Shown one piece after another: positions 3,806-48,131 of a stretch of DNA of 48,699 nucleotides. Under the pieces are notes generated by a model. It made no database searches. It was not told the DNA's origin and saw only the letters and a program-made list of their open reading frames with translations. A program made the translations under genes and the position numbers. The first letter of the stretch is position 1, and every line of letters begins with the position of its first letter. The stretch is from Bacteroidota bacterium. GTDB taxonomy: Bacteria > Bacteroidota > Ignavibacteria > Ignavibacteriales > SURF-24. The DNA lies in the NCBI GenBank assembly GCA_030706145.1, contig JAUZPB010000023.1, forward strand, positions 1 through 48,699, written 5' to 3'.

Positions 3806-4013
3806 AGGGCCCCCTGAATAATTTAAGTTGATCATATTCCATAAAATCGGCGTTGATAAATCTGACAACATGTAAATGCTAATATAATAATTTTTTGATA
3901 AAATTCTATTTTTTTGGGATATTAGTTCTTTGAGCAGATATATATAATTTTATATTAAAGTTTATTTTAAGTATTAAAATACTGACAAATTTAAATTAAA
4001 ATAATAAGGCAAA

Positions 4014-4042
4014 TTGATAATAAAAGGATAATGAGGTATATT
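4014..4042 (+). promoter_or_regulatory. Predicted gap promoter
   Basis: TTGATA and TATATT are separated by exactly 17 bp, which fits a classical -35/-10 promoter. Transcription would begin near 4049, giving a leader of about 38 nt that holds a strong AAGGAGGAG ribosome site (about 4070-4078). The -10 segment followed by TG also reads TATATTTG, which matches the Bacteroidota TAnnTTTG -7 motif, so the two models overlap here. Confidence 0.6.
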
Positions 4043-4068
4043 TGTAGTGCAAAATTAACTAAAATTGA

Positions 4069-5082
<1,014 letters not shown>

Positions 5083-31005: not shown

Positions 31006-32871
31006 ATGAAAAAAATAACTACAGTTCTTATCATTTTAATCCTTTCATTTTATCAGGATGCTATATATTCGCAGGTTAAGCGACCGGTACATTTTGCATG
31101 GCTAAGTGATATTCATGTTGGCAGCACAAATGCTGCAGAAGATTTATCCAGATCGGTTCACGATATTAATTCTTTAAGTGGCGTCGATTTTGTTATTATT
31201 TCTGGTGATATATCTCAAAGTGGAAAAACTTCTGATTTAAGGCTGACAAAGTCGATATTAGACAGTCTTAAAATGCCATACTACATAATTCCAGGCAACC
31301 ATGATGCAAAGTGGTCTGAATCCGGAGCAACAATGTTCTCCAAAATTTGGAAGAGTGACAGATTTGTTTTTGAGCGTTCGGGCATAAAGTTTATCGGATT
31401 ATATGAAGGGCCTTTGATGAGAATGGCAGATGGGCATTTTGCTCCTGAAGATTTAAGATGGCTAGATAAAGTAATTTCCCAGCAGAAGAATAAATTGCAG
31501 CCAGTCATCTTCGTTACACATTATCCTGTTGATAACGAAATTGATAACTGGTTTGAGTTTATTAAAAGAGCAAAGAAGTTAAATACTCAGGTTGTGCTTG
31601 TTGGACATGGGCATGCAAACAGAGAGATGAATTTCGAAGGAATTCCAGGAATAATGGGAAGATCAAACCTTCGGGCAGGTAAAGCAGTTGGCGGCTATAA
31701 TTTAGTAGAAATAAAAGATGATTCTATCTTCTTTTCAGAAAGAATACCAGAAAGCACAACAAAGCCTGTGTGGGCAAAAGTGGCCTTAGGTATGAAGTCT
31801 TATAAAACCGATACAACAAAATATGAAAGGCCTGAATTCTCGATAAATAAAAAGTATCCTGAAATTAAGGAAAAGTGGAGAGTAGAAACAAATTATGTAA
31901 TTGCATCGGCTCCATTGGTTTGGAAAGATGTTGTTATATCCTGTGATTCAAAAGGAGAGGTTAATGCTTTTTCTTTGAATAATGGCAGCAAGAAATGGAC
32001 CTTCAAAACTGGCAGTGGCGTATACTCATCACCGGATGTTTATAATGACAAGGTAGTTTTTGCTTCTACAGATGGTAATATATATTGTATTAACCCAAAG
32101 TTTGGAAAGCTTTTATGGAAATTTAAGACTGGATCACCCATAGTTGCAGCTCCCAAGATTGATAGTGGCATAGTATATATTGGAAGTAGTGAAGGTAAAT
32201 TCCGCGCAATTGATCTAAAAACGGGAAAGCTGGTATGGACATTTGACAAACTTGGTGGGTTTGTTGAAACCAGGCCAATTATTTATGAAGGGAAAGTTAT
32301 TTTTGGGGCATGGGATAGTTATCTTTATGCTTTAGATAAGAATAATGGAAATCTAGTCTGGAAATGGTCTAATGGGAAATCGGAAATCTTGTTCTCACCA
32401 GCGGCATGCTGGCCTGTAGCAACTAATGAGAAAGTTTTTGTTGTTGCTCCAGACAGATACATGACAGCAATTAATGTTTCTACAGGCGAGACAATCTGGC
32501 GCACTAATAAATACCAGGTAAGAGAGGCTATTGGTATTTCAGAAGATGGAAATACAATTCATACAAGGACAATGAACGATACTGTACTTGCATTTTCTTC
32601 AAAGTCCAGTGATCCAGAGACTATTTGGGTAAAGAATGCTAAATATGGCTATGATTTTGACCCATCCATGACAATTGAGAAACAAGGCACGGCCTTTTTT
32701 GGAACAAGGAACGGGTTTGTATATGCAATAGATGCAAAGACAGGAGAAACAAACTGGATATACCGGACAGGTACAGGTTCAGTAAATACAGTTTTTCCTT
32801 TAAGTAAAGACAAAGTAATAATTTCTAATATGGATGGAAGCTTGATGCTCCTGGAAAAAGGAAATAAATAA
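31006..32871 (+). CDS. Secreted metallophosphoesterase fused to a PQQ-type beta-propeller
   Basis: The 621-residue protein has a signal peptide ending in AIYSQ, a calcineurin-type phosphoesterase domain (about 28-250) with all metal motifs (WLSDIHVG, ISGDIS, IPGNHD, VTHYPVD, GHGHAN), and a propeller (about 285-620) made of PQQ-like blades such as GEVNAFSLNNGSKKWTFKTGSG and GNIYCINPKFGKLLWKFKTGSP. The propeller probably binds a partner or substrate rather than PQQ. It is expected in the periplasm or outside the cell. The stop overlaps the next start by one base (TAATG). Confidence 0.88.
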   Translation: MKKITTVLIILILSFYQDAIYSQVKRPVHFAWLSDIHVGSTNAAEDLSRSVHDINSLSGVDFVIISGDISQSGKTSDLRLTKSILDSLKMPYYIIPGNHDAKWSESGATMFSKIWKSDRFVFERSGIKFIGLYEGPLMRMADGHFAPEDLRWLDKVISQQKNKLQPVIFVTHYPVDNEIDNWFEFIKRAKKLNTQVVLVGHGHANREMNFEGIPGIMGRSNLRAGKAVGGYNLVEIKDDSIFFSERIPESTTKPVWAKVALGMKSYKTDTTKYERPEFSINKKYPEIKEKWRVETNYVIASAPLVWKDVVISCDSKGEVNAFSLNNGSKKWTFKTGSGVYSSPDVYNDKVVFASTDGNIYCINPKFGKLLWKFKTGSPIVAAPKIDSGIVYIGSSEGKFRAIDLKTGKLVWTFDKLGGFVETRPIIYEGKVIFGAWDSYLYALDKNNGNLVWKWSNGKSEILFSPAACWPVATNEKVFVVAPDRYMTAINVSTGETIWRTNKYQVREAIGISEDGNTIHTRTMNDTVLAFSSKSSDPETIWVKNAKYGYDFDPSMTIEKQGTAFFGTRNGFVYAIDAKTGETNWIYRTGTGSVNTVFPLSKDKVIISNMDGSLMLLEKGNK

Positions 32872-43069: not shown

Positions 43070-43369
43070 AGAAGGCTTTTCACTAAAAACCAATATATGA
43101 AAATATTTTTAAAGTCTTATCTCTGCCAGTTAAGTCAGGGATAAGAAACCTTTAACACATAGGAAAACAGGAGGATGGGGACTTGAGGTCTTTTACCTGG
43201 TTACTGAGTTTTCCCCAAAGCTCACTCTTTACAAAAAAACGAATTTTAATTAGATTCAATTATTAAGTAATTTCATACTTTACAAGAAAGCTTTTCTCAA
43301 AATTAAAATAATACCTTATTAACCAAATATCTTTTTCAAACCTGCTTATTTAAACAAGGAAGGTAGTCT
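43070..43369. other. Intergenic region before the protease-barrel gene
   Basis: The 300 bases contain one hairpin, CTTATCTCTG / CAGGGATAAG (43116-43125 and 43136-43145, one G-U pair, 10-nt loop), with no T-run. Otherwise there is no recognisable gene. A GGAAGG ribosome site at its right end serves the TTG start at 43370. Confidence 0.5.
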
Positions 43370-46195
43370 TTGAAAGGTAGCATTGTTAAGTTAATAATCA
43401 TCTTTTCCCTGATCTTCCCACAATACATTTTCGGGCAATTTTACTTTTTTGGTAGAAATAAAGTTCAATATGATACATTTGACTGGAAAGTATTAAAGAC
43501 TGAACATTTCGACATATTTTATTATGATGATTTCGAAGAAATGGCTGAAATTGGGGCATCTTTTGCAGAAGAAGCTTTTGCCGATCTGAAAGTAAAATTT
43601 AATAACATAATAACTACAAGAATTCCTTTAATATTTTACAATACGCATCTTCATTTTCAACAAACAAATACTACACCTGGATTTATTCCCGAAGGAGTAG
43701 GCGGTTTTTTTGAATTTCTGAAAGGTCGTGTAGTAATACCCTACCTTGGTTCAATTGACCAGTTTCGCCATGTAATTCGACATGAATTAGTTCATGTTTT
43801 TATGACCAACAAAGTCTATCATGTACTTACGGATCATAGAGTGACGACTGACCGTTATCCGCCATTGTGGTTTACAGAAGGTTTAGCAGAATATTGGTCA
43901 ACAACATGGGATACTCAAGCTGAAATGGTAATGCGTGATGCCGTGCTAAATGATATGTTTGTTGGCCTTGGAGATATGTATCAGATATACGGTACTTTTC
44001 AGATGTATAAAGAAGGGCAGAATCTTCTGGACTTCATTTCAAAGACATATGGAGAAGAGAAGATCTTATACATGATGGAGAATCTCTGGCAATTCGAGAA
44101 TTTTAATGAACTTATTGAATATACAATAAATAAACCAATAGAAGAAATAGATAAAGATTGGCTTTTCTATTTAAGGCAGAAATATTTTCCCTTAATGGCA
44201 AAGGATATTCCTCCAGAAAATGGAGCAAAGAAACTTACAAATATGGGATTCAACTTTTCACCATCGGTGTACAAAAAAGATGGCAAACCATATGTTTATT
44301 TTGTTGCAAACCGCGATGGGTATTCATCGCTCTATGAAATGGAATTAAAACAATTTGAAAAAGAAAAAGACAGGCCAAAACCCGAAGTACTAATAAAAGG
44401 AGAAAAGGAAGACATATTTGAAGCTTTTCACCTTCTTGATGCCTCAGCTAATGTTTCAAAGACAGGACTAATTGCATTTGTAACGAAAACCGGTGCTACA
44501 GATGCCCTGCACATATACTCGATTAAGGAAGACAGAATACTAAAGACCTTTCAGAACAGTGAACTAATTACAATGACATCTCCAAGATGGTCTAACGATG
44601 CAACTAAGATTGTTTTCCAATCAATTGACAGGAGGGGGTATTCCGACCTTTTTGTATATGACTTTTATACTGAAGCGCTTACAAGAATTACAAATGATTA
44701 CTATAGCGATATAAATCCTGTCTTTGGAGAAAACGACAGTACAGTAGTCTTTGCTTCAGACAGAACAGATGGAGAATTTAAGAAAAAGTATAACCTGTTT
44801 GAGTATAGCTTTAAGGACCATTCAATAAATTACCTGACATATTGTAATGCCAACAATCAAAATCCTGTATTTTCTCCGGATTTCAAGTTCCTGTATTTCA
44901 TTTCAGATTATGATGGGATACAAAATATTTGGCGGTTAGGGCGGGATGGTAAGAATTCACAAAACAATATGCAGCAAGTAACGAATTTTATTACAAGTGT
45001 ATATGATTTTTCATTTGTAAACCGGGATTCAATTGTTGCTTCAGCTTTCGAGAAATTCTCATTTCAACTTTATGATATAGATGTCAATAAAGCCAGAGAT
45101 TCAATAAACAGATTTGCTGCATTTGATTTTGCTAAAATTGGAGAAAAATGGATCCCTAGCATACTAAAGTCCGGTTCAATAAAAGGGAAGCTAAAGTATG
45201 AAAATAAATATACACTTGACTATGCACAAAGTCAGGTTACAACTGATCCGGTTTATGGTACACAGGGTGGAGCACTCTTTTCGCTAAGTGATCTGTTTGG
45301 AAACGACAATTATTTTTTTCTAATATATAACACAGCCGAAGTACAAAGCGAGATACTAAAAAGCTTCAATATTGCGATCTCAAGAATTAATATTGGCAAC
45401 AGGGCAAATTACGCCTATGGACTCTTCCATTTTTATGGAAGGCGTTATGACATACAAGAGTCAGATGAGTATTTCTTTGAGCGAAGTTTTGGTGGTTACT
45501 TTACTATGTTCTATCCATTGTCAACATTTAGGCGTTTAGAGGCAAGCGTGACTGTTGCAAATTCTGATAAGCAGATAATTGAAAATGTGTATTCAAGAAA
45601 GGCACTTCTGGTATCCAATTCAATTTCATATGTATTTGATAATTCTTTATCTGGTCCGACTGGGCCTCTTGATGGGATGAGGTATAGGCTATTGGCTAGT
45701 TTTACGAACGATGTAAAGTTTAGTAATGTAAACTATTTTACTTTTATAGCAGATTTCAGAAACTACTTGCGCCTTGGTTACAAAAGTGCATTAGCCTTCA
45801 GGTCGGCAATATTTTATAATGAGGGAAAAGAGGCAAGAAGATATTTTATGGGAGGCAGTTGGGATTTAAGAGGGTATGACCGGTGGTCAATAAGGGGTGA
45901 AAAGATGTGGCTTACATCTCTTGAGCTCCGTTTTCCATTGATTGACCTGTTTTTCATCAGATTCCCGGTTCTTGACCTTGGCTTTCCAAATATCCGGGGT
46001 GCTCTTTTCTTTGACAGTGGTGGAGCATGGGATCAAACATACAGAGAAACTTTAGGAAGTGTTGGCGGAGGTATCAGGATAAATCTTTTTAATGTAATAG
46101 CTCTTAGATATGATATAGGTAAAAAAATTGAAAACAATTATACCACATTTCAGAAAGGGCTGTTTTATCAGTTCTTTATTGGGTGGGACTTTTAA
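43370..46195 (+). CDS. Outer-membrane fusion: HExxH metallopeptidase, TolB-like propeller and Omp85-type barrel
   Basis: The 941-residue protein has a signal peptide ending near YIFGQ. Residues about 30-280 look like a peptidase-MA/gluzincin domain with HELVH (138-142) and the third-ligand region WFTEGLAEY (Glu170). Residues about 290-600 hold TolB/PD40-like blades (SPRWSNDATKIVFQS, NPVFGENDSTVVFASDR, NPVFSPDFKFLYFISD). From about 640 the sequence is barrel-like with DLRGYDRW, the RGY-type motif of Omp85/D15 proteins, then FFDSGGAWD and an end in GWDF. A surface or periplasmic protease anchored by its own barrel is likely. Translation begins at TTG 43370, 6 bp after GGAAGG. A BamB-like gene follows 33 bp later. 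Confidence 0.85.
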   Translation: MKGSIVKLIIIFSLIFPQYIFGQFYFFGRNKVQYDTFDWKVLKTEHFDIFYYDDFEEMAEIGASFAEEAFADLKVKFNNIITTRIPLIFYNTHLHFQQTNTTPGFIPEGVGGFFEFLKGRVVIPYLGSIDQFRHVIRHELVHVFMTNKVYHVLTDHRVTTDRYPPLWFTEGLAEYWSTTWDTQAEMVMRDAVLNDMFVGLGDMYQIYGTFQMYKEGQNLLDFISKTYGEEKILYMMENLWQFENFNELIEYTINKPIEEIDKDWLFYLRQKYFPLMAKDIPPENGAKKLTNMGFNFSPSVYKKDGKPYVYFVANRDGYSSLYEMELKQFEKEKDRPKPEVLIKGEKEDIFEAFHLLDASANVSKTGLIAFVTKTGATDALHIYSIKEDRILKTFQNSELITMTSPRWSNDATKIVFQSIDRRGYSDLFVYDFYTEALTRITNDYYSDINPVFGENDSTVVFASDRTDGEFKKKYNLFEYSFKDHSINYLTYCNANNQNPVFSPDFKFLYFISDYDGIQNIWRLGRDGKNSQNNMQQVTNFITSVYDFSFVNRDSIVASAFEKFSFQLYDIDVNKARDSINRFAAFDFAKIGEKWIPSILKSGSIKGKLKYENKYTLDYAQSQVTTDPVYGTQGGALFSLSDLFGNDNYFFLIYNTAEVQSEILKSFNIAISRINIGNRANYAYGLFHFYGRRYDIQESDEYFFERSFGGYFTMFYPLSTFRRLEASVTVANSDKQIIENVYSRKALLVSNSISYVFDNSLSGPTGPLDGMRYRLLASFTNDVKFSNVNYFTFIADFRNYLRLGYKSALAFRSAIFYNEGKEARRYFMGGSWDLRGYDRWSIRGEKMWLTSLELRFPLIDLFFIRFPVLDLGFPNIRGALFFDSGGAWDQTYRETLGSVGGGIRINLFNVIALRYDIGKKIENNYTTFQKGLFYQFFIGWDF

Positions 46196-46228: not shown

Positions 46229-47374
46229 ATGAAGAAGTATTCAAAGTACATTTTAGTTTTTATTTCGTTTTTGCTTTTGGCAGGGTGTTCAAGTGATATT
46301 TCTATTAAAAATGCTACATACGGTGAGCCCTCATATAAAATGTTTGGGAGGACCCCGGAAAGGAATTTTTATGTTTCGCAAAGCATTGGTGATTCAATAA
46401 GATTAAAGTGGAGTGCTGATATTCACGGGAGCTTTGGAAATACTTCTATTACTGCGATGCAAAAATATATTTTTGCTCCTGATTTATCCGGAAGAATTTA
46501 TGTTTTTAACATAGAAAATGGCAAAGAGCTAGGAGAGGTAAAATATAAGGGAGCTATTAATACTACTGCTTTGATTGATCATTTGAGAATAATTTTCCCT
46601 GTTATGGAGTTTAAAGAACCAAAGACAACAATTTATAATTATAACTTTCAGACTGCAAAACATACATCTGAGATTGAAGTCGAGGGGAATGTAAGGTCAG
46701 AGATTGTAAATATTGGTGAAGATATTCTTTTTGTAACCGAACAGGGAAATGCGTATAGATATAGTCTTACAAATGAAAAGATATGGGAGTATGCATCTAA
46801 AAACTTTATACATAGTATACCTGTTTTATATAACGATGCATATATTTTTGGTAATGATAAGGGTGAGATAATCTCAATAAATGCACAAACAGGAAAAGTA
46901 AACTATGCAAAGAAAACCGGCAGTGGCTTTGAGTGTGGATTTTCTGTCTCGGATAATATTCTTTATTGTGCAGATAATTCAGGAATGATCTATGCAGTTG
47001 ATATAAGTTCAGGTGAAACTATCTGGAAATTTAATTCAAAATACAAGATAACGCTAACGCCTGCAGCAGACAAAGAATTTTTATATGTGGGAAATTTAAG
47101 AGGGGAGATATATAAACTTGATAAAAAGACAGGCCGGTTTCAGTGGAAAGTCAGCACGAATGGAATAATTGACACTACTCCCATAGTTTTTGATGACAAC
47201 CTGCTACAACCTGATCTTAACAAGAAGCTTCACTTCATCGATAAAAAAACAGGCGTGATTGTAAAAACAATGTCTCTTGAGAATCGTGCAAAACTATCTC
47301 CTGTATTTTATGAAAATATGTTATTTCTTGGTATTGACAACGGAAAGCTTCTGGCTTTTGAAAAGTTTCAATAA
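46229..47374 (+). CDS. BamB-like PQQ-propeller lipoprotein
   Basis: The 381-residue protein has a lipoprotein signal with lipobox LLAGC and a propeller of PQQ-type blades: YIFAPDLSGRIYVFNIENGK, GEIISINAQTGKVNYAKK, GMIYAVDISSGETIWKFN, GEIYKLDKKTGRFQWKVS. The layout matches BamB, the propeller lipoprotein of the barrel-assembly machine, and the neighbour upstream carries an Omp85-type barrel. Whether the two interact is inference. The propeller could also serve other scaffold roles. Confidence 0.82.
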   Translation: MKKYSKYILVFISFLLLAGCSSDISIKNATYGEPSYKMFGRTPERNFYVSQSIGDSIRLKWSADIHGSFGNTSITAMQKYIFAPDLSGRIYVFNIENGKELGEVKYKGAINTTALIDHLRIIFPVMEFKEPKTTIYNYNFQTAKHTSEIEVEGNVRSEIVNIGEDILFVTEQGNAYRYSLTNEKIWEYASKNFIHSIPVLYNDAYIFGNDKGEIISINAQTGKVNYAKKTGSGFECGFSVSDNILYCADNSGMIYAVDISSGETIWKFNSKYKITLTPAADKEFLYVGNLRGEIYKLDKKTGRFQWKVSTNGIIDTTPIVFDDNLLQPDLNKKLHFIDKKTGVIVKTMSLENRAKLSPVFYENMLFLGIDNGKLLAFEKFQ

Positions 47375-47396: not shown

Positions 47397-48131
47397 ATGA
47401 AAAAAATAAGCATAAAACTATTAATAATATTGGCTATGTGGTCAACTATTCTTATTGCTCAGGATAATTGCATATCAAAGCTTATAATAAATTCTACTGA
47501 TTCATCGGCGGTAATATATATAGATGGGAAAATGATGGGCCATGGGGCAGTAAAGGCTGATGTCTCAAAAGGCAAGCATATGATATATTCGAAAAGCGAT
47601 GTAAGAAAATGGAATGCCCATGAGGTATACGATTCTGTTTTAATTGATGACTGTGGCATTGAAAAACTAGTAAATTTAAGTTTTAGCAGGCAAGTATATT
47701 TAAGCAGTGATCCTATAAATGCCCAAGTATATTACAAAGATTCACTCATAGGTACGACTCCATTATATTTGTCATCTGAAATTTCACAAGTTGATCTAAA
47801 AAAGAAAGATTACCGGACCGAAAAAGTTGGTTTGGAAAATCTTTTACACAATGGTTCAACCATAAAACTGGATTTTATTGGAAAAGGAAACAGGAACAAC
47901 TTTTTTAGAACTAATATGTTTAAAATATTACTAGGCAGTGCAGTTGTGCTTGGAGGGACAGCTGCTTATTATAAACTAAAAGCAAATGACTATTTTGATG
48001 ATTACAACAGGACAGGAAAGCCATCGGCATTAGATAATACAAATAAATATGATAAGATCAGTGGAATAGCCTTTGGTGCGCTTCAGGTCAATTTTGGTGT
48101 TATACTCTATTATCTGCTTACCGAAGAATAG
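47397..48131 (+). CDS. PEGA-domain protein with C-terminal membrane segment
   Basis: The 244-residue protein has a signal peptide ending in ILIAQ, two PEGA-like repeats (SSAVIYIDGKMMGHGAVKADV near the N-terminus and PINAQVYYKDSLIGTTPLYL in the middle) and two hydrophobic segments near the C-terminus (ILLGSAVVLGGTAAYY and AFGALQVNFGVILYYLL). PEGA domains are surface-layer-type beta domains of unknown role. The frame is open upstream to 47277, but only the ATG at 47397 gives an export signal. Confidence 0.8.
   Translation: MKKISIKLLIILAMWSTILIAQDNCISKLIINSTDSSAVIYIDGKMMGHGAVKADVSKGKHMIYSKSDVRKWNAHEVYDSVLIDDCGIEKLVNLSFSRQVYLSSDPINAQVYYKDSLIGTTPLYLSSEISQVDLKKKDYRTEKVGLENLLHNGSTIKLDFIGKGNRNNFFRTNMFKILLGSAVVLGGTAAYYKLKANDYFDDYNRTGKPSALDNTNKYDKISGIAFGALQVNFGVILYYLLTEE

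Follow-up and report, generated by a model that had tools for sequence, protein, structure and literature searches.

The Locus and the Domain Order of the Chain

The window, a stretch of 48,699 nucleotides (contig JAUZPB010000023.1) from a Bacteroidota bacterium of the order Ignavibacteriales, carries towards its end a conserved trio of genes, all on the forward strand: an intact open reading frame encoding a chain of 941 residues (43370-46195), the gene of a BamB-like β-propeller lipoprotein (46229-47374) and that of a PEGA-domain protein (47397-48131; recognised by Pfam, with an inferred start). The start codon of the first gene is TTG, as the open frame between stops is just 942 codons long; a Shine-Dalgarno-like sequence (AAGGAAGG, 43356-43363, forward strand) lies 6 bases 5' of it. 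The chain opens with a signal peptide, assigned by inspection to residues ~1-22 (43370-43435), and its first 25 residues are poorly conserved; a peptidase domain, a TolB-type propeller and a BamA-type barrel follow in this order. The closest named relatives come from MAGs of Ignavibacteria and Ignavibacteriaceae.

A preliminary description of the locus had read the chain as an intact N-terminal zinc peptidase, a TolB-like propeller and an Omp85 barrel betrayed by an RGY-type motif and an aromatic C-terminus. This reading stands: matches to Peptidase_MA_2, PD40 and Omp85 in Pfam and to TolB in NCBIfam bear out all three domains in the order claimed, the HExxH site is conserved throughout the orthologues and the C-terminus models as a BamA-like barrel. 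As the zinc residues are invariant in all 84 homologues compared and the family comprises three ancient paralogues, the domain combination is not a product of chance.

The Zinc Peptidase Domain

Residues 24-275 (43439-44194) constitute a zinc peptidase domain of the peptidase MA or gluzincin type, as judged from Pfam, profile comparison and predicted helices. It harbors the motif HELVH at residues 138-142 (43781-43795), with the presumed zinc ligands H138 and H142 and the presumed catalytic E139, and, within WFTEGLAEY (residues 167-175), the presumed third ligand E170 (43877-43879). The gluzincin signature, HExxH and a downstream Glu in an EGxAE motif, is present in 84 of 84 homologues; H138, E139, H142, E170, G171 and E174 are identical in every one of them, across the three paralogue clades, and the nine homologues that read WM where others have WF all keep the motif. 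Dead peptidase domains normally lose their active-site residues; the invariant zinc site argues for selection on catalysis.

The window protein matches Peptidase_MA_2 (PF13485) at 1.9e-5, with 25-28.8 bits against a Pfam cut-off of 32.4; the same model is matched by 22 of 24 family members, and a paralogue on contig C291 of the same genome (paralogue B) scores 54.7 bits, over the cut-off. Weaker Pfam matches are to M61, M1, M9 and BSP. Compared with the PDB, the profile of the family’s N-terminal domain finds microbial collagenases and an M1 aminopeptidase, weakly (best 0.0034), in alignments that span both HExxH and WxxEGxAEY. The domain has this pair of motifs in common with microbial collagenases (M9) and M1/M61 aminopeptidases, but the similarity is weak and gives no basis for naming a substrate. 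In the structure model, HELVH sits on a helix of residues 129-155 and E170 on a helix of residues 166-175, the same placing as in gluzincins. The listed fold-search matches of the model include no metallopeptidase structure because the propeller fills the lists, and this absence is not evidence against the fold.

The Propeller and the Barrel

The TolB-type β-propeller spans residues ~287-577 (44228-45100) and is recognised by the NCBIfam TolB model TIGR02800 (2.4e-20), by Pfam PD40 (2.3e-8) and by its fold, residues 306-577 matching TolB with a Z-score of 25.7 over 243 residues (rmsd 2.4) against a Z of 21 for the best fold other than TolB. The likeness to TolB is limited to the propeller, which is here fused to a peptidase and a barrel.

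After a gap of ~26 residues, the Omp85/BamA-type barrel occupies residues 604-941 (45179-46192), on the evidence of Pfam, profile comparison and a barrel model. The Omp85 family PF01103 matches residues 709-941 at 4.3e-10, over the Pfam cut-off, and a barrel profile of 23 homologues finds BamA chains at 5.7e-12, two of them across positions 18-343 of its 343. Alignment of homologues places the loop-6 motif LRGY at residues 833-836 (45866-45877), its RG being invariant across the profile set, and the chain ends in an aromatic residue, F941. When the barrel is modelled alone, with low confidence (pLDDT 57, the last two thirds being better), every one of its 50 best structural matches is to BamA or TamA, with Z-scores of 15.5-17.9; the model has 15 strands, and a 16th would fit in the first stretch, which is unmodelled. 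The full-chain AlphaFold model, built from nine sequences, has a pLDDT of 55 and falls mostly below 50 in the barrel, so that the packing of the domains cannot be read from it; its peptidase and propeller are usable. In comparison with BamA and TamA, the window chain has the same barrel fold and loop-6 motif but has its peptidase and propeller where those proteins have POTRA domains, for which Pfam gives no match anywhere in the chain. The POTRA before the barrel that marks the TpsB proteins of two-partner secretion is likewise lacking.

Three Paralogues across the Phylum

Each of 59 genomes searched within the order has at least one member of the family. Of 247 genomes from across the phylum, 163 contain the family according to a peptidase-domain profile, mostly in open frames of 940-1130 codons, and all 36 additional homologues from outside the order have both peptidase and barrel matches. 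The domain tree resolves three clades: clade A, on a starred branch, unites the window protein with its relatives and has ten entries from outside the class; clade B also has ten such entries; clade C is made up of five entries on a long branch. As A and B are both found in other classes, the duplication that separated them is older than the split of the classes, barring transfer. The window’s own genome has copies on contigs C146 (A), C291 (B) and C4 (C, by weaker matches); the third, at ~8525-10969 of C4 in a frame of 1044 codons with weak Omp85 and Peptidase_MA_2 matches, is probably of clade C.

Paralogue B (L032:8256-11474, from C291 and grouped with L032:1441-6057 and L062:6627-9149) lies in a cluster of envelope genes that runs uppS, bamA, two skp/OmpH-like genes, lpxD, lpxC-fabZ, lpxA, others, the gene of a 1538-residue protein, RNase R and paralogue B; apart from BamA, OmpH and RNase R, these names are presumptive, assigned by reading of the sequences. 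The BamA encoded there is canonical, with five POTRA domains in Pfam. For the 1538-residue protein, Pfam gives no hit below 0.1; among seven aligned orthologues, TamB is matched by two (best 1.9e-27), AsmA by four and DUF748 by six. The order of TamB-like gene, RNase R and paralogue B recurs in 16-18 of 20 loci, and the intervening RNase R means that the linkage of the outer two may be plain synteny.

A protein of 633 residues on the Salinibacter ruber plasmid pSR116 (L184:4944-6845) consists of a peptidase with intact HELVH and a propeller, with no barrel; the peptidase-propeller module can therefore exist without its anchor. It is annotated as “basic secretory protein-like” and its gene is followed by a serine carboxypeptidase-like one. 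Plasmid records gave this protein, weak partial matches and nothing further; the phylum-wide profile search covered the phylum of the window. Viral contigs gave two weak peptidase matches and no others; on viral contigs L102 and L103 (236 and 266 kb), a short stretch at 4001-4168 is 33% like the peptidase domain.

The Adjacent Lipoprotein

The lipoprotein gene begins 33 bases past the stop of the first gene, and its product has a lipobox, LLLAGC, with the cysteine at position 20 (C20), invariant in the 10 lipoproteins aligned. Like BamB (YfgL), the protein is a PQQ/BamB-type propeller (PQQ_2, PF13360, 6.4e-24; YfgL model, 3.5e-30), but at 104.9 bits it falls far below the equivalog cut-off of TIGR03300 (285.2 bits). 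No acidic run follows the lipobox cysteine in the lipoproteins of the order, which fits a location in the inner leaflet. Elsewhere in the window (31006-32871), a protein of 621 residues fuses a calcineurin-like phosphoesterase (PF00149) to a propeller of the BamB/PQQ type, and many of the order’s genomes encode PQQ proteins of similar length.

That a BamB-like lipoprotein gene follows directly had already been pointed out in the preliminary description, and the arrangement extends well beyond one genome: of the 27 clade-A loci in a first set, 26 have the two genes side by side, as do 16 of 17 more (seven from the class and ten from the wider phylum), and in a wider survey the PEGA-domain gene comes third in 25 clade-A loci. 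Upstream of the trio, most relatives have polyprenyl synthase and PTS genes and the window has S41 protease, tmk and YbbR genes; the trio has thus been kept together while its surroundings changed. The three upstream genes of the window were considered as parts of the system and rejected, not being conserved beside the trio.

Presence and absence point the same way. Among the 59 genomes, 49 have both the clade-A gene and the lipoprotein, ten have neither and none has one alone, the weak lipoprotein matches in these ten being other PQQ proteins. Mapped on the tree of paralogue B, this amounts to eight changes, five of them on starred branches and each of them joint, hence five to eight losses. 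Because adjacent genes could be lost together in one deletion and a sign test on five pairs can go no lower than 0.0625, the linkage is strong but is not proof. With assemblies 93-100% complete, gaps could also account for some of the absences. BamA is retained in all ten genomes that lack the pair; the lipoprotein is therefore not simply the BamB of the canonical BAM complex, which can do without it. On these sequence comparisons, the lipoprotein probably serves the clade-A chain rather than BAM.

Relation to Known Systems

Part of this architecture is already known. One of the ten Omp85 subfamilies of Heinz and Lithgow (2014; PMC4104836), WD40-Omp85, likened there to a BamA-BamB fusion, has an Omp85-type barrel and an N-terminal WD40/TolB-like propeller without POTRA, as does the window chain, and an expansion of Omp85 proteins in Ignavibacteria is noted in the same paper; its main text names neither an N-terminal peptidase nor a partner gene for WD40-Omp85, but its tables could hold prior notice. 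The “Omp85-metalloprotease” class of that paper (section 10) rests on PF00149, which according to Pfam is a calcineurin-like phosphoesterase; it is therefore a different protein, and its protease label looks mistaken. What is new here is the constant presence of an intact peptidase, the three clades, the partnership with the lipoprotein and the proximity of clade B to a TamB-like gene. The literature searched held nothing on PF13485 in connection with the outer membrane or on the three-domain combination, and the passages searched on the 2025 structures of Bacteroidota BAM complexes mention no peptidase-propeller-barrel component.

The nearest functional analogue, by proposed role, is BepA, a zinc metallopeptidase at the site of outer-membrane assembly; this periplasmic protein combines an M48 peptidase, with E201 as third ligand, and a TPR domain, and targets LptD and BamA, with the BAM complex as its probable site of action (PMC8423444). 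The peptidase domain of the window chain belongs to another gluzincin type and is fused to a propeller and a barrel. Identity with BepA was rejected, as the chain has no PF01435 match at E<=1 with a model that does find the genome’s own M48 proteins; there is no TPR match either, the C-terminus being a barrel. Identity with BamA was rejected as well, since the chain lacks POTRA domains and the genome’s true BamA has five. PlpD, of type Vd secretion, likewise fuses an enzyme to an Omp85 barrel, but has a lipase domain and POTRA where the window chain has a peptidase; in PlpD, POTRA stands between enzyme and barrel.

A Proposed Role at the Outer Membrane

The reading we favour, for and against which we see about equal chances, is that the chain is a periplasm-facing zinc peptidase, anchored in the outer membrane, which forms a unit with the BamB-like lipoprotein and serves in quality control or maturation. 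The BamA-type barrel would fix the chain in the outer membrane with its N-terminal domains beneath, the arrangement of BamA and TamA. Clients would dock on two propellers, the TolB-type one of the chain and that of the lipoprotein, which would stand in for POTRA domains; and the HExxH/E170 peptidase would trim or degrade outer-membrane or secreted proteins bound there. We infer the periplasmic topology, the catalytic activity, the physical complex and the nature of the clients by analogy and from sequence. The N-terminal domains of BamA and TamA are periplasmic; peptidase and both propellers are placed in the periplasm on account of this topology and of the lipoprotein’s lack of an acidic run. 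Catalysis is argued from the invariant site, and outer-membrane clients from the likeness of barrel and partner to BamA and BamB; the proteolysis of misfolded clients would follow the example of BepA.

The same barrel, with its invariant loop-6 motif, and the same partner could also belong to a second assembly or translocation factor, akin to BepA and BAM in one chain plus a lipoprotein, in which the propellers would capture particular clients for the barrel to insert or export, and the peptidase would only dispose of failures or serve as a holdase. The position of paralogue B, downstream of bamA, skp, lpxD and lpxA and behind the TamB/AsmA-like gene and RNase R, would suit such a factor, which we regard as possible but rather unlikely: the chain has no POTRA, a canonical five-POTRA BamA is present, and the loss of clade A in several lineages shows the chain to be dispensable and argues against an essential role in assembly. 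A broader version is a doubtful proposition: clade A and its lipoprotein would form a second, protease-equipped assembly line that proofreads barrel insertion alongside BAM, and paralogue B would take the part of TamA, working with the TamB-like protein.

It is less probable still that the barrel exports the N-terminal domains of its own chain to the cell surface, in the manner of the patatin-Omp85 protein PlpD. Enzyme-barrel fusions of Omp85 type that reach the surface are known (PMC4104836), and the Salinibacter module can exist on its own; against this, more than 550 residues would need to pass, just ~26 residues separate propeller and barrel, where PlpD has POTRA, and the partner lipoprotein looks periplasmic. 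That the peptidase fold is a structural or binding module of a pore or scaffold would agree with the sub-threshold Peptidase_MA_2 score of the window protein, but four active-site residues invariant in all homologues of three clades make this very improbable.

To our knowledge, quality control at the outer membrane is known almost only from Proteobacteria. With a protease and a BamA-type barrel in one chain, the proofreading of barrel assembly becomes testable outside E. coli. The link between paralogue B and the TamB-like protein bears on the replacement of TamA in this phylum: were the assembly-line proposal true, a peptidase and a propeller would there have taken the place of TamA’s POTRA domains.
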